DNA of 35,317 nucleotides from Bryobacterales bacterium (GTDB lineage Bacteria > Acidobacteriota > Terriglobia > Bryobacterales > Bryobacteraceae), in assembly GCA_009697505.1 (NCBI GenBank), contig SHUD01000025.1, positions 1-35,317 on the forward strand, given 5' to 3'. The notes below the pieces were generated by a model, which saw nothing but the letters and a program-made list of their open reading frames with translations, was not told the origin of the DNA and did not search any database. A program made the position numbers and the translations under genes. Positions 1,735 to 15,778 of the stretch are shown here, one piece after another (position 1 is the first letter of the stretch; each line of letters opens with the position of its first letter).

Positions 1735-4077
1735 TCACGTTCTCATGCGGGCGAAGAAGTATAGGCCTGCGAGCGAGAAGATCGCGTTGGGCGACCACGC
1801 GGCAATTTGCACGGGCAACTGGCTCAGGTTGCCGAATTGTTCAAATACCTGACCCACCGACCAGTACACGATGGCGATACCCAGGCTGATGCCCACGCCG
1901 GCCATGGCGCCGCGATTGCCCGCCAGAAACCCGAAGGGGATCGAAACCATGGCCATGATGAGCGCAAACAGAGGCACGGAAAATTTCTTCTGCAATTGCA
2001 CCTGTAGCGGGATGGTATCGAAGCCGCTCTGCTGCAGCTCGCCGATATAGGCGCCGAGCTCGTGGAAATTCATCTGCCGGGACTGCTTCACTTCCTTGAT
2101 GAAGTAATCCGGCGGCTCATCGATCTCCGGGAAAGTGCGGGCGCCGCCGGCAAAGTCATCGAAATGCGTGACGTTGTTGCCGTTCATGTCGCGGCTCCAG
2201 CCGTTCTGAAAGACCCATTCGTTCAGGCTCGGCTCCCAGCGGGCCCGCTCGGCGGAGATGTGGCGCTTCAGACGAAAACGCGCGGGATCGATCTCATAGA
2301 CGTTGACGCCCAGCATCACGCGCTCGCTTTGATCGAAGTATTTGTAATAGAACATGCGGTCGTGAAGACCCGAGATCCAGCGCCGGTCGGGCCGCAGGAA
2401 AGTCTGCGCGGGGCGGCCTTTGATCTCCGCGCGAATGGCGTCCTGGCGTCGGTCGGCTTCCGGCACCCAGTAGTGGTCAAAGGCGAACAGCGCGCCGCTC
2501 AGGAACACGCCGGCCATCAGCACGGGTGCGGCGAGCCGGTACACGCTCACGCCACAGGCTTTGAGCGCGGTCACTTCGTTGTGTTTGGAGAGAACGCCGA
2601 AGGCCACCAGTACCGCTGTAAGAACTCCGAACGGCGCCAGTTCGTAGATCAGTCTGGGGGTCAGGAACAGGTGATAGGTCAAGACGCGATCCATCGGGAT
2701 GCGGTTGCGTATGATGTCGCTTAGCAACTCAAAGAACGTGAACACCTGGAACATCAGCACGAAGCTGGCCAGCAGCAGGGCGAAGTAAAACAGGAAGCCC
2801 GAAAGCACGTAGGTATCCGTCAGGCGCGGCAGGAGTGAAAAACGGCCGAGCCACATTTTCGGCTCCAGCCGCTCGAGTGGCTTTCGCGCGGGCGGCCGGA
2901 AAGCGCCTAACCGCGCGCTGAGAGCTCCGATCAAATCGATATCGCCCGGTCTTTCCAGACGCGCGAGCATGATGATGCCGCCGGCCGCGAACAGGAGATT
3001 TGGAAGCCACACAGCGGTTTCCGGAGACAGCGTTCCCTGGCGGGCCAGGCTGATGAAGCTGATGAGCCCCATGTAGTAGAGAAACGCAAGAGCCACGGTC
3101 AACACCACGGCGGCGGACTTGCCCGCGCGCCGGCGCGTGATTCCGAGCGGAATTCCGACCAAGGCCATGAGCAGGCAAGCCAGCGGCAAGGCCAGGCGTT
3201 CCTGAAATTCGATCCGTGCATCGAGCCTGCCGGTTGGGCTCAGCGTGCTGTCGTGATATGCCTGCCGGTACAACGCCGGTGTGTCCATCTCAATCGAGGG
3301 CCGGGAGGCGCGCGCCGCCGAAGGTTTACGGGCTTGCAGGGCCTGATCACCCACCGGGAAGGCGGTGATGCGGTAATCGGCAAGTTCCTTGCCGGCTTCG
3401 TAGGTGCTGCCATTGCGCAGAGAAAGCTGCAGCCGGCTCAAGGACGGGTCGGCGACGACAATGGCTTCGGACGCCAGCGTGATTCGCGGCCCGTCGCCCC
3501 GCTCCGGCGCTCCGCCAGGACGGTTATCTTCCGGAGTCACGTCGGCCAAAAAGATTCTTCTCCAGTGTCCGGTGATACCCGTGGTGACGTCGGTCACATA
3601 CAGAATCGAATTCGGAAATTGCTCTTCGAAAACGCGCGGCTGAATGTCGGACGTGAGACCGCCGGCAATTAACTGGTTCTCGATGCGATAGCGTTCGCGA
3701 ATGGCCCACGGGGTCAGCCAGCAGGAGGAAGCGGCCGCCACCAGCATCGCCGCGCATCCGAATAAGAGGATGGGAGGCGCCACGCGCCGTCCCGGAATGC
3801 CGGCCGCGCGCATGGCTGTGATTTCGCCATCGGTCGACATCCGCGAGAGGGTGATCAGCGTGGCCACCAGGACGCCCAAGGGAACCGTAAAGGGCAGGGC
3901 TTGCGGCAACACCAGCAAAAACAGGTAGGCGACTGTTGAATGCGGGCCGGTGCTGCGCACCAGAAACTCGAACAAGGGGCGCGCGCGCAACAGAAAGATC
4001 AAGAACGTGAACAACACGGCGCCCAGCAGCGCGGTTACCACTAATTCGCGGAGGATGGTGCGGCCGAGCAAACGCAT
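1735..4077 (-). CDS. Fused LptF-LptG-type LPS export permease
   Basis: A 780-residue inner-membrane protein made of two YjgP/YjgQ units in one chain. The first unit (about 1-375) starts MRLLGRTILRELVVTALLG with TM helices, the conserved EITAMRAAGIP coupling region, a periplasmic beta-jellyroll domain and closing TM helices. The second (about 415-780) repeats the plan: YVLSGFLFYFALLLASF, then NEVTALKACGVSVYRL, then a periplasmic domain and terminal helices. In E. coli LptF and LptG are separate proteins that pair with the LptB ATPase to extract lipopolysaccharide. A single chain would supply both transmembrane halves; that is inference from the duplicated architecture. No lptB, lptC or lptA is nearby. 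It is the last gene of a minus-strand group, 9 bp after the TldE-like gene. Confidence 0.88.
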   Translation of the reverse strand: MRLLGRTILRELVVTALLGAVLFTFLIFLLRARPLFEFLVRSTGPHSTVAYLFLLVLPQALPFTVPLGVLVATLITLSRMSTDGEITAMRAAGIPGRRVAPPILLFGCAAMLVAAASSCWLTPWAIRERYRIENQLIAGGLTSDIQPRVFEEQFPNSILYVTDVTTGITGHWRRIFLADVTPEDNRPGGAPERGDGPRITLASEAIVVADPSLSRLQLSLRNGSTYEAGKELADYRITAFPVGDQALQARKPSAARASRPSIEMDTPALYRQAYHDSTLSPTGRLDARIEFQERLALPLACLLMALVGIPLGITRRRAGKSAAVVLTVALAFLYYMGLISFISLARQGTLSPETAVWLPNLLFAAGGIIMLARLERPGDIDLIGALSARLGAFRPPARKPLERLEPKMWLGRFSLLPRLTDTYVLSGFLFYFALLLASFVLMFQVFTFFELLSDIIRNRIPMDRVLTYHLFLTPRLIYELAPFGVLTAVLVAFGVLSKHNEVTALKACGVSVYRLAAPVLMAGVFLSGALFAFDHYWVPEADRRQDAIRAEIKGRPAQTFLRPDRRWISGLHDRMFYYKYFDQSERVMLGVNVYEIDPARFRLKRHISAERARWEPSLNEWVFQNGWSRDMNGNNVTHFDDFAGGARTFPEIDEPPDYFIKEVKQSRQMNFHELGAYIGELQQSGFDTIPLQVQLQKKFSVPLFALIMAMVSIPFGFLAGNRGAMAGVGISLGIAIVYWSVGQVFEQFGNLSQLPVQIAAWSPNAIFSLAGLYFFARMRT

Positions 4078-4086
4078 GGCGGCGGC

Positions 4087-5883
4087 TTAAGGCGTGGTCC
4101 GGGCCGGGGGCGGAACCAGCGGCGGTTTTTCCAGAGGCTCCTGGAGACGGTCGACTTCCAGTTCGTCGAACAGCAGGCCCGGAGCGATCACGGAAGTGCC
4201 GGCGATGTATCCGGCCACGCCCGTGCGTGCCAGAGGCGCGCCGTTGTTGATGTAGTGGAAGATCGCGGTCTCCGCCGACGCCGCCAAAATATCGCGCAGG
4301 GAACGGGTGGAGAGTCCCTTGAAACGCAGCCCGCGGACCAATTCCTCACGGCCGTCCGGATACACGCGATAGATCAATATAGGCGGGCTCACGGGCCGCA
4401 CCGACCCACCGGACTGCGCCGACACGGTCTGCAACGCCTGCAGCTCCGTGTTATTGCCGGAATAAGGAAAGTCCAGCTTGCGCAGCAGCAGGCCGTAGGG
4501 CTTGTCGCGTTCCTTGCACAGCTCCATCAAGCGCGTCTTCAACTCGGCCAGCGGCGCGGTCTGCGTCGCGTTCACGAACAGATTACCGATGGCGGCGGCG
4601 CGCGCGCCGAATCCGGCGGGGAAACGCGCGTGGCCGTTGGAGGCGGGCAGATTTCGCGCCGGTTGGCGCGTGGTCAGAAACCTTCGCAGAAAGCCTTTGT
4701 CGATCGCGGTGACGGCCTGTGGGGGCACGCCTTCGAAATCGAACGGATAGTAACCCAGCAACGGCTTGCCTTGCCAAGTGGTCTGCGTGGGATCGTCGAT
4801 TACGGTGATCCACTCCGGCACAACGCGCGATCCCATGCGTCCCTCAAACTCGCTGGCGATCAGATTCAAAGGCCGGTTCGGATCGGTAACGGGTTTCCGC
4901 TGAATGCGCAGGTTGTCGCCTAAGAGCTGGGCCAACAGTTGCGCGGCGGCCTCCGGCTCAAACAGCGTCGGACCCAGGAAGGATTCCCCCACCGGGGCTT
5001 TCACCAGGTCCCGGATGTGAATGGCGACCGCAGTCACGGCTTTCTGCAGGTCCGCTTCAGAGGGAAGCTGCTGCACGTCCAGAGCATTGATTTGCAGAGT
5101 CTCGCGCAGGATCATGCCGTCCGCGGCTTGCCCTTCACCGCGTGCCTGCAGCCAGCCGATATCTCCCGGATAGCGCAGTTGGGCGCCCTCGGTGCTTACG
5201 TAGTAGGTGGTATCCAAATGGAAACGGAACTCGACGCCAGAGGCCAGCACCGCAGGGTAGGCATTGAAGATTGCCGACAGCTTCGTGACCCGAGCCGTCC
5301 AAGGGTCCAAGTCGATCTTAGGCCGGGTGATCTTAGCCAGGGATTGCACGGCCGGCGCCTTCGAAAAATCGGGCAACTTTTCGGCGGGTGCGGCGGCATT
5401 GGTGAGCGAGGCGCGTTTGCGCGCGATGGACTCCACGGCGGCCTTGAAAGCGAAGTCCGTTCCCAGCCACAGGCCTTCCCGCAGAGACAGATAGTCGTCG
5501 TCGATTGGCAGCGGCTCGGTATCATAGCGCGATCCGCTGTAATAGCCACTGAAAATGTGGCCCGAGTTGTCGAAATCGTAGCTGCCGACGCGGACCTCGA
5601 TACCTGGGTACCGGAAACGCCGGTGGGAATTGGAAGTGATCGCTCCGAAACTCGCGCCAACGTTGAAGATCTCGTTGTCGTCGATGGTGTAGCTGAGGAA
5701 GTAGGGCGCATCGTCGCCGCCGCCGCCCACTACGCGCAATTGCTGGAAGCGCCCGATTTCATCGAGCATGGCTTTGAGGATGACGTCATCGGGAGCGCCC
5801 TGGGCAAGCAGCCGCGTCAGGCTCGAAGAGAGTGCCGCCGCCATGCCGCCGGCCAGCAGAAATTGACGCCGCGAAGCAGCCAT
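4087..5883 (-). CDS. Exported TldE/PmbA-like protein lacking the zinc motif
   Basis: A 598-residue member of the TldD/PmbA (modulator of DNA gyrase) family. The N-terminus contains SRRQFLLAGG followed by a hydrophobic stretch, a good twin-arginine signal, so export in folded form is predicted. At the position of the TldD HExxxH motif it reads AQLLGD, so both histidines and the glutamate are gone; this is the pattern of the non-catalytic TldE/PmbA partner. The late TldD-family segments remain (SNGHARF, PYGLLLRKL, YRVYPDGREELVRG). Its ATG overlaps the stop codon of the upstream TldD-like gene by one base (TAATG), implying translational coupling and a heterodimer. Cytoplasmic TldD/E process peptides in E. 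coli; an exported pair would act outside the cytoplasm. Substrate unknown. Confidence 0.85.
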   Translation of the reverse strand: MAASRRQFLLAGGMAAALSSSLTRLLAQGAPDDVILKAMLDEIGRFQQLRVVGGGGDDAPYFLSYTIDDNEIFNVGASFGAITSNSHRRFRYPGIEVRVGSYDFDNSGHIFSGYYSGSRYDTEPLPIDDDYLSLREGLWLGTDFAFKAAVESIARKRASLTNAAAPAEKLPDFSKAPAVQSLAKITRPKIDLDPWTARVTKLSAIFNAYPAVLASGVEFRFHLDTTYYVSTEGAQLRYPGDIGWLQARGEGQAADGMILRETLQINALDVQQLPSEADLQKAVTAVAIHIRDLVKAPVGESFLGPTLFEPEAAAQLLAQLLGDNLRIQRKPVTDPNRPLNLIASEFEGRMGSRVVPEWITVIDDPTQTTWQGKPLLGYYPFDFEGVPPQAVTAIDKGFLRRFLTTRQPARNLPASNGHARFPAGFGARAAAIGNLFVNATQTAPLAELKTRLMELCKERDKPYGLLLRKLDFPYSGNNTELQALQTVSAQSGGSVRPVSPPILIYRVYPDGREELVRGLRFKGLSTRSLRDILAASAETAIFHYINNGAPLARTGVAGYIAGTSVIAPGLLFDELEVDRLQEPLEKPPLVPPPARTTP

Positions 5884-7538
5884 TACGGTATGGCCTCGGG
5901 ACGCGGCAGATAGGGGGGTTGATCCTGCGACCGCTCTTTCCTCTGAATTTCAATGCTCGAGACCAGCAGGGCCGGAGCGATGGCCGCCACCGGTACGTTG
6001 CCGGATTCCGCGCCGCAGATCCCGTTGAAGACCTCGCTTCTGTCCGAGGTGGCCATGATGTTGGCGAAGCTGGCGAGCGGCGTGCCGACGATGCTGACGC
6101 CCCGGATGAGCTCATCCGGGCGGCCGTCCGGATAAACGCGGTACACCACCAGAGGCACCACCGTAAAGGCCTGCAGGCCGCGCCGCGCGGTAGTGGTGTA
6201 GCCGCTGGTGACTTGATCGAAGTACAGGCCGTAGGGCTTGTTCTGCCTCTTCACTTCCTCGATCAGCATCTGGCGCAGTTGCTGGTCGCTCACCCGCTTG
6301 GACGATTCGACGAATAGATTGGATTGCCGCGACACGATCTCCGCGCCCGGCTGGCGGCGGCCATGGCCGTTGGAGGTGGGAAATCCGTCGATCGGAGCGC
6401 GCGACATGAGAAACGTCTTGAGTACGCCGTTTTCCACTACGGGGACACGCCGCGCCTTGACTCCTTCGTCATCGTAAAGATAGGAACCATTGAGCATCGT
6501 GCCCTGAAAATCCCGCAGCGTGGGATCGAAGACCACCGAAAGAAACGGCGGCAAGATGGCGTGGCCCACGCTCTTGGTGAAGGTCTGCCCTTCGGTTTCG
6601 TCCTTCTGGCGGTGCCCTTCGATGCGGTGGCCGAAAATTTCGTGAAAGAACACACCCGCGGCGCGGCCCGAAAGGATGGCGGGCCCGACAATAGGGTCGG
6701 CGGGCGAGGCGCGCAGCAGATCCTGCAAATTCCGGCCGGCCTTTTCCACCGCCGCCAGAACGGTGGCGTCATTGGGGAGGCGCGCGGGATCCTCGGTTTC
6801 AAAACTCTCCATGGTTTGGAGGTCCATTCCGTCCGCGGCCTTGCCGGCCGTAGTGATAATGATCCGGCTAAACAGGCGGCCATGCTCCAGACGCGTTCCT
6901 TCGCTGGTGACCAGTGTCTCGACGACGCGCTGGACCTGCACGCTCACGCTGGAATTGAGCGCCCCCGGATACTTGGTGAATTCCCTGGAAAGTCTACGCA
7001 GGCGCGCCGTCCATTCGTCCGCGTTGAACTGCAACGGTGGCGGTTGAGAAAAAGCGACCTGCGGATCTTCCTTGGAAAAATCGTCGGAGCCATCGGTGGC
7101 GGCCGCGCGTAGCTTTTCGTCCGCTTTGATCTGGATCAGCCGCTGCGATACGTTACGGTAGACGCGGTCGGTGGCCAGCCAAACCGCCTGCCGGATCGAG
7201 GCCGGGTTGTCGTCGAGAGCAATCTGCGTGGTCGCCGTAAAGCGCGGGATCTGACCGTTGATGCGCCGGTAGTTATCGAACTTGGGAGTGCCGACGCGCA
7301 CGGTGATGTCGAGAAGCCGTGAATGACTCTGATTCTGGGAGGAGACGGCTCCGTCGGCCGCGCTGATGGCAAACGATTGGTTGTTGCTTACGGAATAGCC
7401 GATGAAGTATGGCGGCGGGTCGCCTTTTTCCTTTAGAACATTGAAGTTCCGGTCCAGTTCACTGCTGAGGATTACGCTCAACGGCGACTGCGCGGCGGCG
7501 CAACTGGCCAGGGCCATCAGAACGGCAAATTTTCGCAC
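5883..7538 (-). CDS. Exported TldD-like metalloprotease
   Basis: A 551-residue TldD-family zinc protease. The N-terminus MRKFAVLMALASCAAAQ is a Sec signal peptide. The zinc motif is intact: FFHEIFGHRIEGH gives His299, Glu300 and His304, and a C-terminal GICGAESG segment matches the region holding the conserved cysteine of TldD. Other family marks are SNGHGRRQPG and YRVYPDGRPDELIRG. It is the first gene of a group running to the TldE-like protein (one-base overlap) and the LptF-LptG fusion. By analogy with TldD/TldE, this chain is catalytic and its neighbour is the structural partner. The Sec versus Tat signals on two presumed partners are odd, since Sec substrates fold after export. Substrate unknown. 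Confidence 0.87.
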   Translation of the reverse strand: MRKFAVLMALASCAAAQSPLSVILSSELDRNFNVLKEKGDPPPYFIGYSVSNNQSFAISAADGAVSSQNQSHSRLLDITVRVGTPKFDNYRRINGQIPRFTATTQIALDDNPASIRQAVWLATDRVYRNVSQRLIQIKADEKLRAAATDGSDDFSKEDPQVAFSQPPPLQFNADEWTARLRRLSREFTKYPGALNSSVSVQVQRVVETLVTSEGTRLEHGRLFSRIIITTAGKAADGMDLQTMESFETEDPARLPNDATVLAAVEKAGRNLQDLLRASPADPIVGPAILSGRAAGVFFHEIFGHRIEGHRQKDETEGQTFTKSVGHAILPPFLSVVFDPTLRDFQGTMLNGSYLYDDEGVKARRVPVVENGVLKTFLMSRAPIDGFPTSNGHGRRQPGAEIVSRQSNLFVESSKRVSDQQLRQMLIEEVKRQNKPYGLYFDQVTSGYTTTARRGLQAFTVVPLVVYRVYPDGRPDELIRGVSIVGTPLASFANIMATSDRSEVFNGICGAESGNVPVAAIAPALLVSSIEIQRKERSQDQPPYLPRPEAIP

Positions 7539-14124: not shown

Positions 14125-14568
14125 ATGCTCAAGTGGCTATTCCCCGACCCTCTTCCCGTGGGCTCATCCGCGCCGGATTTCTCGCTGCCGGATCAGGACG
14201 GGAAAACGGTATCGCTCCAAGACCTGCGCGGCCGCAACGTGGTTTTGGTTTTCTATCCGGGTGATGACACCACGGTCTGCCGGCGGCAGTTGTGCGAGTT
14301 CCGCGACCGCTGGGCGGATGCCCAACAAAAGAACACGCTGGTTTTTGGAGTGAATCCGCAGAACGCCGTCAGCCATGCGAAGTTTATCGGCAAGAGCCGG
14401 TTGCCGTTCCCCCTCTTGGTTGATCAGGGTCAACTGATGGGCGCGCTGTACAGGACCAAGGGCCTCATTGTAAGGCGCACGGTTTACTTAATCGGCCCTG
14501 ACGGCGTCATCCGTTACGTAAAACGGGGAACCCCCGGCGCAGACTTGGTACTCTCTCATGCCGTTTGA
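14125..14568 (+). CDS. Peroxiredoxin, AhpC/TSA (BCP-like)
   Basis: A 147-residue thiol peroxidase of the bacterioferritin-comigratory-protein type. The fold begins with [19 protein letters not shown]. The active site [18 protein letters not shown] supplies the conserved Thr49, peroxidatic Cys52 and a second Cys57 at the C-x4-C spacing typical of atypical two-cysteine BCP enzymes. The chain ends with [18 protein letters not shown]. It should reduce hydroperoxides in the cytoplasm using thioredoxin. Its end overlaps the thiE start by 11 bp, so both are probably translated from one mRNA, possibly with the PhoB-type gene. Confident family call. Confidence 0.92.
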
Positions 14569-15205
14569 CCTGCCTGCCTTTTATCCCATACTGGATACCG
14601 AAATCGCCGCGCGCTACGGCGTAGACGTTACTTTTGCCGCGCGCGAAATCCTGGCCGGTGGCGCCAGGATTCTACAGTTCCGCCACAAAGGGTTTTTCTC
14701 CCGCGATGTCTTCGCGGCGATGGAACGCGTGGCCGCAGTGTGCCGCGATGCCGGAGTGCCGTTTGTCGTCAACGACCGCGCGGATCTGGCGGTGCTCACC
14801 AACGCGGTGCTGCACTTGGGCCAGGAGGATCTGCCACCGGCAGCCGCGCGCAAGATCACGGGCCCCGATACCATCATTGGCTACTCCACGCACAACGAAA
14901 CCCAACTCCGCGCGGCTGTGGCTGAGGGAGTGGCGGATTATCTGGCGCTCGGTCCGATCTTCGGCACGGCATCCAAGGAGAATCCAGACCCAACGGTGGG
15001 GTTGGCGGAATTGAAACGTCTTCGGCCTCTGGCGAACCGGCCTCTGGTGGCCATCGGAGGAATTACCCGCCAGAATGCTCGGGCGGTTCTTGCCGCCGGT
15101 GCGGACTCGGTCGCCGTGATCGGGGATTTGTTTGCGGATCCCGGCAATTTGCGGGGCTGCGTGGAGGATTGGATCGCGGTCACGCGGGACGCAAAAAATG
15201 TTTGA
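14558..15205 (+). CDS. thiE: Thiamine-phosphate synthase (ThiE)
   Basis: A 215-residue TIM-barrel enzyme that joins HMP-pyrophosphate and thiazole phosphate to give thiamine monophosphate. Visible family motifs in order: ILQFRHKG (cf. Q-L-R-x-K), [51 protein letters not shown] and [10 protein letters not shown], ending with VAVIGDLF. TenI-type relatives share this fold but usually lack some of these, so ThiE is preferred. Other thi genes are absent and no TPP riboswitch precedes it. It overlaps the peroxiredoxin gene by 11 bp. Its TGA stop (15203-15205) lies inside the -35 box of the downstream promoter. Confidence 0.92.
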
Positions 15206-15230
15206 CAGGACCGCAAAGCCGCCGTAATAT
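15202..15230 (+). promoter_or_regulatory. Near-consensus sigma70-type promoter
   Basis: TTGACA at 15202-15207 and TAATAT at 15225-15230 are separated by exactly 17 bp. The -35 box is a perfect consensus and the -10 differs at one position. A start near 15237 is expected. The -35 overlaps the thiE stop codon. This is the clearest promoter in the window and implies strong, probably constitutive transcription of the short unit that follows. Confidence 0.8.
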
Positions 15231-15266
15231 GGGGCTATCACTGAAGAAGGAGGTGGTCCAGTCAAC

Positions 15267-15329
15267 ATGTTATCTGGAAGTTGTAATCACTATTTAGCTC
15301 TTACCACGCGCGAGGTGGCTGACTCTTAA
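15267..15329 (+). CDS. 20-residue putative leader peptide or microprotein
   Basis: ATG at 15267 to TAA at 15327-15329 encodes MLSGSCNHYLALTTREVADS. Upstream, AAGGAGGTG at 15247-15255 is a 9-base match to the 3' end of 16S rRNA, among the strongest ribosome sites possible, although the 11-base spacing to ATG is on the long side. A consensus promoter drives it and a terminator closes the unit about 95 nt after the stop. The peptide has no signal sequence and no stalling motif I recognise. An ORF this short can arise by chance; the ribosome site and isolated transcription unit argue for translation. I do not recognise a family. Confidence 0.6.
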   Translation: MLSGSCNHYLALTTREVADS

Positions 15330-15422
15330 TCCTGAACCTCTGACCTTCAGGTTTCGTTTCAGTGACGAAGCCGCTCCTCATCCGGACCGGCTACTTCACG
15401 CGAAATTCGAGTCTCGAATAGG

Positions 15423-15460
15423 AAGCCCCGCATGGGCCCCGGGCCTGTGCGGGGCTTTTA
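15423..15460 (+). terminator. Strong intrinsic terminator
   Basis: AAGCCCCGCA (15423-15432) pairs with TGCGGGGCTT (15448-15457), a perfect 10-bp stem capped by an inner GGCCC/GGGCC stem and followed by TTTTAT. It closes the short unit begun by the promoter at 15202, or could act as an attenuator for rpmE. Confidence 0.85.
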
Positions 15461-15541: not shown

Positions 15542-15778
15542 ATGAAACCTGGAATTCACCCTGCCTACGAAGAAGTCAACGTGACTTGCGCCTGTGGACA
15601 CAAGTTCCAAACCCGTTCCGCGCACAAGGGCGACATCCGCGTGGAAATCTGCTCCAGTTGCCACCCGTTCTTTACCGGCAAGCAGAAGCTGATTGACACG
15701 GAAGGCCGCGTGGACCGCTTTCAGAAGAAGTATCAGAAGGCCCGCGACGCCGCCGCCGCCAGCGCCAAGAAGAACTAG
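15542..15778 (+). CDS. rpmE: 50S ribosomal protein L31
   Basis: A 78-residue ribosomal protein. It starts [20 protein letters not shown], typical of L31. Cys16, Cys18, Cys37 and Cys40 (CACG and [13 protein letters not shown]) make it the zinc-binding C+ form; zinc-independent paralogues lack these. The C-terminal Lys/Ala-rich tail is a common extension. No clear Shine-Dalgarno precedes the ATG. The gene stands alone downstream of the leader/terminator unit at 15202-15460, and the next gene is convergent. Confidence 0.97.

Follow-up and report, generated by a model that had tools for sequence, protein, structure and literature searches.

The window, that is, the whole 35,317-nt stretch of DNA analysed here, carries at 15202-15460 a free-standing transcription unit composed of a promoter, an RNA of about 225 nt and a terminator. 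Judged from sequence comparison, the RNA appears to be a divergent branch, spread over several phyla, of an orphan family of small RNAs, Ms_IGR-5 (RF02471), and it contains a micro-ORF framed by two Shine-Dalgarno motifs (SD1 and SD2). In our estimation there is an even chance that this conserved gene for a short structured RNA serves to catch a ribosome where translation begins and to re-anchor it at the stop codon by means of SD2.

The element occupies the gap between thiE (14558-15205, Pfam TMP-TENI) and rpmE (15542-15778, Pfam Ribosomal_L31), and its promoter begins inside the last codons of thiE. The features are listed in Table 1. An earlier note on this DNA had described an isolated transcription unit with a TTGACA-N17-TAATAT promoter, a 20-residue ORF, several small hairpins and a GC terminator with a stem of 10 bp. 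All of them are present and the unit is conserved, as is the reading frame; two of the hairpins are paired across the aligned relatives, and the terminator stem comprises 18 pairs in the fold. The promoter agrees with the consensus at 10 of 12 positions, with two promoter-like sites per 2 kb against 0.5 in shuffles, and TTGAC and TA...T spaced by 16-19 nt occur at 32 of the 33 loci among L001-L034 that reach far enough. Terminator-like sites per se are not rarer than expected by chance (four, shuffles giving 2.7 with sd 1.6). The whole RNA is more stable than its own shuffles (folding z -4.7), and the first 142 nt fold no better than theirs (z -0.74); therefore, the excess of the whole RNA is probably due mostly to the terminator.

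Table 1. Features of the element, in positions of the window
Feature	Position	Strand	Remarks
Promoter	15202-15230	+	-35 TTGACA at 15202-15207, -10 TAATAT at 15225-15230
RNA 5' end, AUCACUGA	15237-15244	+	Predicted start
SD1, AAGGAGGTGGTCCAGTC	15247-15263	+	Can pair with 17 nt at the 3' end of 16S rRNA
Micro-ORF, MLSGSCNHYLALTTREVADS	15267-15329	+	20 codons and TAA; frame kept in 71 distinct rows
SD2, GAGGTG	15312-15317	+	Encodes Glu-Val; starts exactly 15 nt ahead of the stop codon
Possible stop-codon hairpin	15312-15340	+	GAGGU 15312-15316 with ACCUC 15336-15340; weak, 60% of cells paired
Hairpin H1, GGUUUCGU-UUCAGUG-ACGAAGCC	15350-15372	+	Loop CAGUG nearly invariant
Hairpin H2, CCG..UCC-loop-GGA..CGG	15371-15390	+
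Intrinsic terminator	15421-15460	+	Folds into a stem of 18 pairs (15421-15459), followed by a T-rich run

The conservation of the element places it beyond chance. As the earlier note had proposed, acidobacterial genomes were searched with BLASTN and the aligned hits were used for covariance modelling. The 236-nt element DNA has a blastn match (E ≤0.001) in 33 of 61 genomes, namely the window's own and its relatives. Since RNAalifold gave only 12 pairs for the 32 sequences of the first alignment, A1, a covariance model, R1, was made with a structure set by hand; it was built on the alignment A2, which holds 28 of the 34 loci and leaves out L021, L024, L025, L030, L033 and L034 as short or divergent. 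R1 matched 228 of the 257 genomes of the order Bryobacterales, including 154 of its 163 better genomes and 77 of 84 genera, and 19 of 297 genomes in a phylum-wide sample. The aligned loci keep GCATCACTGA (the first two bases vary), AAGGAGGTGGTCCAGTC, the ORF and CAGGTTTCG...CAGTGACGAGGCC, while the terminator, where seen, lies at a variable distance. The distant acidobacterial matches of R1 (L065-L080) belong to the families f8, f24, f27 and f45; MSSNHSEVAEA, VDSCLTPREVADA and MKIDSNSCTINTVREVTEA are examples of their peptides. All 16 of them have SD1 and the micro-ORF, with GAGGTG placed 15 nt ahead of the stop codon, a count to be read with the facts that the model was trained on GAGGTG-bearing copies and that the layout test itself requires GAGG at this place. 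A copy from the window's genus (G020:C6) encodes a peptide identical to that of L141, which is labelled Terriglobia; similar copies are labelled Bryobacterales. Two R1 matches each occur in nine of the 228 genomes (G009, G023, G069, G088, G090, G092, G122, G217 and G248); some are at contig ends and others are unequal in score, and possible causes are paralogy, the splitting of contigs and the mixing of bins.

Immediately behind the 5' end lies SD1. The 9-base match to the 16S rRNA 3' end described in the earlier note, AAGGAGGTG at 15247, is real and longer than stated there, for 17 contiguous nucleotides of the window copy can pair with GGCTGGATCACCTCCTT, including two G-U pairs. The range across copies is 17-20 nt, the upper value being reached by those that read AGAAAGGAGG. 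This 16S end was the sole form found, in eight of 41 genomes, where it is followed by TCT in seven and by AAC in one; the pattern is absent from the search results for the other 33 genomes and for the window's own assembly. The predicted hybrid of SD1 and the 16S end has an energy of -34.3 kcal/mol with 18 pairs in the window copy, the best hybrid elsewhere in the window reaching -26.0 kcal/mol among 23,522 stretches sampled from its two strands, and the duplex of copy L008 is predicted at -38.1 kcal/mol with 20 pairs. The word AAGGAGGTGRTCC occurs once in the window's genome, inside the element, and one to three times per genome in the ten tested. Among 71 distinct copies, 65 have GGAGGTGGTCC and five have GGAGGTGATCC, and either base pairs with the U of the 16S rRNA.

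The micro-ORF was examined in 71 distinct rows, derived from 72 matches of which one was identical to another. Three rows lack the exact GAGGTG. In all of the other 68, the distance from the ATG to GAGGTG is a multiple of three, although it takes ten different lengths between 21 and 48 nt, and the distance from GAGGTG to the stop codon is 15 nt. The distance from the Shine-Dalgarno motif to the ATG serves as an internal control, taking every value from 17 to 23 nt in single-base steps. The stop codon itself is TAA in 31 rows, TGA in 28 and TAG in 12. Glu is written GAG in 70 of the 71 rows and Val is written GTG in 69, while the third base of the preceding codon is free (entropy 1.69 bits); consequently, GAGGTG is selected as a nucleotide word. 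The encoded peptides are 12-21 aa long and their middle is nearly free. From the Cys and His of the window peptide the earlier note had suggested, only weakly, a link to zinc. A role of this kind was rejected, as these residues show no conservation across the 71 peptides, although many relatives nonetheless end in Cys.

For the RNA structure, 72 loci were realigned with R1. Hairpin H1 has its six counted pairs formed in 96-98% of cells, and five of the six are changed on both sides; H2 is paired in about 90% of cells, and four of its five counted pairs have one or more rows in which both partners are changed. Taken as a whole, the structure surpassed all 500 shuffles and all slid versions in each of five measures, although the alignment was fitted to the structure tested and kinship among the sequences also favours such results. 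The 5' end AUCACUGA is complementary both to GUGGU of the Shine-Dalgarno motif (a pairing termed P0) and to the H1 loop CAGUG, with which it may form a pseudoknot. The latter pairing is possible in 99% of cells, and there is no covariation in it within the order, where the 5' end is nearly invariant in the 71 rows; for this reason P0 and the loop pairing are consistent with the alignment and not proven by covariation. A conserved hairpin hiding SD2 was tried as well and rejected. Pairing across the stop codon was seen in 57/65, 11/14 and 65/79 sequences, compared with means of 57.0, 12.2 and 63.5 for shuffled tails, and its mean energies lie below those of each of 40 tail shuffles; such a hairpin is not claimed, because the shuffled tails pair as often. 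In L030 (G011), an insertion of about 38 nt lies directly 3' of the ORF, and the other parts are kept.

Does the element occur outside the Acidobacteriota? A pattern scan of public genomes returned at least 120 stretches, of which 80 listed loci were used. Since the pattern imposed GAGGTG, N9 and TRR, these loci say nothing about the 15-nt spacing and bear only on the in-frame start: ATG, GTG or TTG stands in frame 7-14 nt after GGAGG in 73 of the 80, and the other seven would need CTG or ATC. By label, which can be wrong for metagenome bins, the listed loci are mostly from Acidobacteriota and Actinomycetota (or actinomycete genera), with one contig each labelled Sumerlaeota, Rokuibacteriota, Zixibacteria and Nitrospirae, one unnamed bacterium, and two copies from Deltaproteobacteria with a peptide type of their own (VIEKCRDCEVTET and MIDKCCDCEVAET). 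Each of ten tested genomes, both from Deltaproteobacteria included, has one match. A broader sequence model, R2, trained on 113 copies including the listed scan loci, matched 67 of 297 genomes sampled across the window's phylum and 129 of 296 from that of Mycobacterium colombiense (G555, the genome of L112). In the phylum of a genome labelled Deltaproteobacteria (G556) it matched four of 247, that genome included; this last low count indicates that R2 does not match at random. The ORF is present in 17 of 20 further loci, mostly weaker matches, and an ORF of the expected layout is missing in three of 44 later loci (L257-L300), 13 of which are places already counted. By eye, the part from SD1 through the ORF to SD2 is conserved between classes and the 3' half is not. 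One subtype, made up of L289, L292, L293, L295 and L298, comes from the phylum of the Mycobacterium genome; its peptides end in VTVEVMRR, VTVEVTRR or VTVEVMSR.

The link to a described RNA comes from these distant copies. The window element itself belongs to no credible Rfam family, whether the window was searched at gathering cut-offs or the element up to E 10; at E ≤10, the element gave seven chance-level matches, all below their own cut-offs. RF02471 in particular has no match to the window copy (E up to 10) or in the window's genome, and among 21 genomes it has none above its cut-off. However, the full RF02471 model matches seven of the 16 distant acidobacterial loci at E ≤0.1, and the matches coincide with those of R1 (L067, L068, L069, L072, L073, L075 and L080), as they do at G037:C961, where they start at 2298/2299 on the same strand. 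Against the cut-off of 45 bits, the scores are 47.3 for L073 (44.5 when rescored), 44.8 for L080 and 29.2 for G037. The RF02471 consensus, ACACAaGGAAGGAgGugGuCc...GUGAGGUGgCugCccGCuaG, can be read as SD1 and as a micro-ORF end ...E-V-A-A-R-stop, with GAGGUG 15 nt before UAG. Thus AAGGAGGUGGUCC at the 5' side and GAGGUG 15 nt before the stop codon are common to the consensus and to the window (15247-15259 and 15312-15317). The view of the earlier note that a match to a known Rfam family would refute its proposal applies in part: the window copy has no such match, but its distant homologues match RF02471. Through these intermediates the window family appears homologous to Ms_IGR-5, the relation being remote, and Ms_IGR-5 is the only described relative found. 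It starts with ACAC..GGAAGGAGGUGGUCC, followed by GUGAGGUGGCUGCCCGCUAG, and shares the micro-ORF end of the window family, while its ORF has about 12 codons against 20 in the window copy and its 3' hairpins differ.

Ms_IGR-5 has been met with in several experimental studies. Its expression as a discrete sRNA is reported for M. smegmatis (PMC10454040) and for Streptomyces, where the copies of S. avermitilis and S. lividans are reported as validated by RNA-seq or transcript ends (PMC8079986, PMC8780764). For M. abscessus and M. smegmatis, significant ribosomal reads on MS_IGR-5 are reported in a text that also states that ribosome reads are common to many ncRNAs and that clear evidence of translation is lacking for the non-coding RNAs it finds ribosome-protected (PMC4974804). 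In the accessible portions of the open-access literature, Ms_IGR-5 figures as an sRNA of Actinobacteria, with no mention of an ORF, a second Shine-Dalgarno motif or an occurrence in acidobacteria.

How could the two motifs work together? SD1 would capture a 30S subunit, as suggested by its complementarity to the whole single-stranded tail of the 16S rRNA, and the ribosome would translate 12-21 codons, in agreement with the conserved frame. Once the last sense codon occupies the P site, SD2 would lie 8 nt upstream of it and would hold the terminating or post-termination ribosome. A spacing of 8 nt between GAGG and the P-site codon is that of ordinary initiation, so the fixed 15 nt from GAGGTG to the stop codon fit an anchoring at the stop. 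The RNA would then park or count ribosomes, or deliver its 3' hairpins to the ribosome, and the peptide itself would matter little. Conservation, the strict frame, the spacing of SD2, the complementarity to the 16S rRNA, the covariation of H1 and the ribosome reads on Ms_IGR-5 speak for ribosome anchoring, to which we give equal chances of being right and wrong. Against it count the three rows without the exact GAGGTG, the seven scan loci and three later loci that lack the expected start or ORF, the frequency of ribosome reads on other ncRNAs, the stop-codon pairing no commoner than with shuffled tails, the missing covariation of the pseudoknot and the weak constraint on the amino-acid sequence. 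Among the three directions suggested in the earlier note (an attenuation leader for L31, a free microprotein, and an RNA that competes for ribosomes by its strong Shine-Dalgarno motif), the direction of the last is the best supported and is strengthened by an SD2 at a fixed distance from the stop codon. A wider proposal is more tentative and in our view somewhat doubtful, namely that of a multi-phylum ribosome-parking RNA that docks the 30S subunit on the entire 16S tail, has a throw-away peptide made and locks at the stop codon by SD2, with Ms_IGR-5 as one branch. If it were true, the RNA might be a store, a sensor or a hibernation aid for ribosomes.

The strict frame also agrees with a functional micropeptide gene, in which the RNA would be an efficiently initiated mRNA and its product, ending in REVADS/C (EVAEA or EVAAR elsewhere), would act. 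Besides frame, start and stop, which are strictly kept, this reading is favoured by variation at the third base of the codons for the Arg before EV and for the Gly at codon 4, by a last Ser encoded by both TCN and AGY, and by a slight synonymous excess: 25 independent pairs show 29 synonymous and 54 nonsynonymous single-base codon changes, compared with a null of 21.5 synonymous ones. However, this excess is weak, since 29 was attained in 21 of 500 simulations, and a product of 12-21 aa with a nearly free middle, Glu-Val codons near-frozen at the nucleotide level and conserved 3' hairpins that an mRNA does not need make the micropeptide gene unlikely. Translation is thus well supported by the strict frame, and the precise peptide only weakly; of the free microprotein of the earlier note, the clearly conserved frame stands and the amino-acid sequence is only weakly kept, a constraint which may leave some room for a role of the peptide. 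We would give as small a chance to a dual-function base-pairing sRNA, which would act on target mRNAs through the H1 and H2 loops (CAGUG and UCCU) and whose fold would be switched by translation of the micro-ORF. The covarying H1 stem around its nearly invariant loop and the complementarity of the 5' end to this loop agree with it, as do the complementary runs between the 5' and 3' parts of the same sequence. Runs of at least 6 occur in 25 of 95 sequences, against a mean of 12.5 when the parts are swapped (attained in 1 of 2000 swaps), and runs of at least 5 in 52 of 95 (swapped mean 41.3; 23 of 2000), while at lengths of at least 7 there is no clear excess (6 of 95; swapped mean 3.0; 123 of 2000), and the relatedness of sequences across groups inflates any such excess. 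For the pairing of the 5' end with the loop, another cross-group test gave a small excess, with a mean own run of 5.13 against 4.81 for swapped sequences, the largest of 20 swaps being 5.09. Against this sRNA stands the 3' half, which, judged by eye, is not shared between classes as the SD1-ORF-SD2 part is.

Much less probable are two further readings. An RNA of the 6S/Ms1 type, which would bind RNA polymerase, would likewise be free-standing, structured and mostly single copy, and a search for 6S RNA (RF00013) in the genome of the window, an assembly of only 65% completeness, gave none; yet the covariance model of RF00013 has no match at the element and the most conserved parts of the RNA are directed to the ribosome, so that we regard this type as very improbable. 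Identity with Ms1 was rejected, because IGR-5 and Ms1 are listed as different RNAs of M. smegmatis in the available part of the source (PMC10454040). Hardly to be expected at all is a cis-acting attenuation leader of rpmE, the gene of ribosomal protein L31, as the earlier note had considered. Among 32 loci of the order (L024 and L025 were dropped as too short), tblastn with the window rpmE as query places the start of rpmE 217-382 nt after the RNA 5' end, in the same orientation, in 22, but it was not found in the other ten or in any of the 16 distant acidobacterial loci L065-L080. It lies near the element in only five of the 80 listed scan loci, all labelled acidobacterial, and a strong terminator separates the RNA from it. 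The element does not always precede rpmE, and with a synteny that is not constant the leader is largely refuted; the element stands as an independent unit, whose rpmE neighbourhood is partly shared by descent.

Several known RNAs resemble the present one in part. The ribosome-associated ncRNAs (rancRNAs), such as those of Haloferax volcanii, are likewise described as RNAs that act on the ribosome; compared by their available descriptions only, the present RNA differs in its translated frame and its Shine-Dalgarno complementarity. SgrS/SgrT and SR1/SR1P are likewise sRNAs with a small ORF, according to an excerpt on them (PMC11133741), whereas in the present RNA the geometry of SD1 and SD2 is more conserved than the peptide. 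Ms1 and 6S RNA are also free-standing structured RNAs, but bind RNA polymerase; the present RNA has no 6S match and is set apart from Ms1 by the description available.

A large group of acidobacterial RNAs is now linked to an orphan actinobacterial sRNA, Ms_IGR-5, their common core being a micro-ORF with a ribosome-binding motif on either side of its course, the two set in a fixed geometry. Should a ribosome be held at the stop codon, the anti-Shine-Dalgarno sequence would be used at termination. To our knowledge, no described RNA uses it in this way, and no description of such a use was found in the open-access papers searched. The function of Ms_IGR-5 becomes directly testable with codon-level mutants.

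Elsewhere in the window, two other places on the minus strand were noted. A protein of 780 aa encoded at 1735-4077 has two LptF_LptG stretches (Pfam) and is an apparent fusion of both lipopolysaccharide export permeases, and the adjoining frames of 598 and 551 aa at 4087-7538 look by eye, from their translations, like a pair of the TldD/TldE type.
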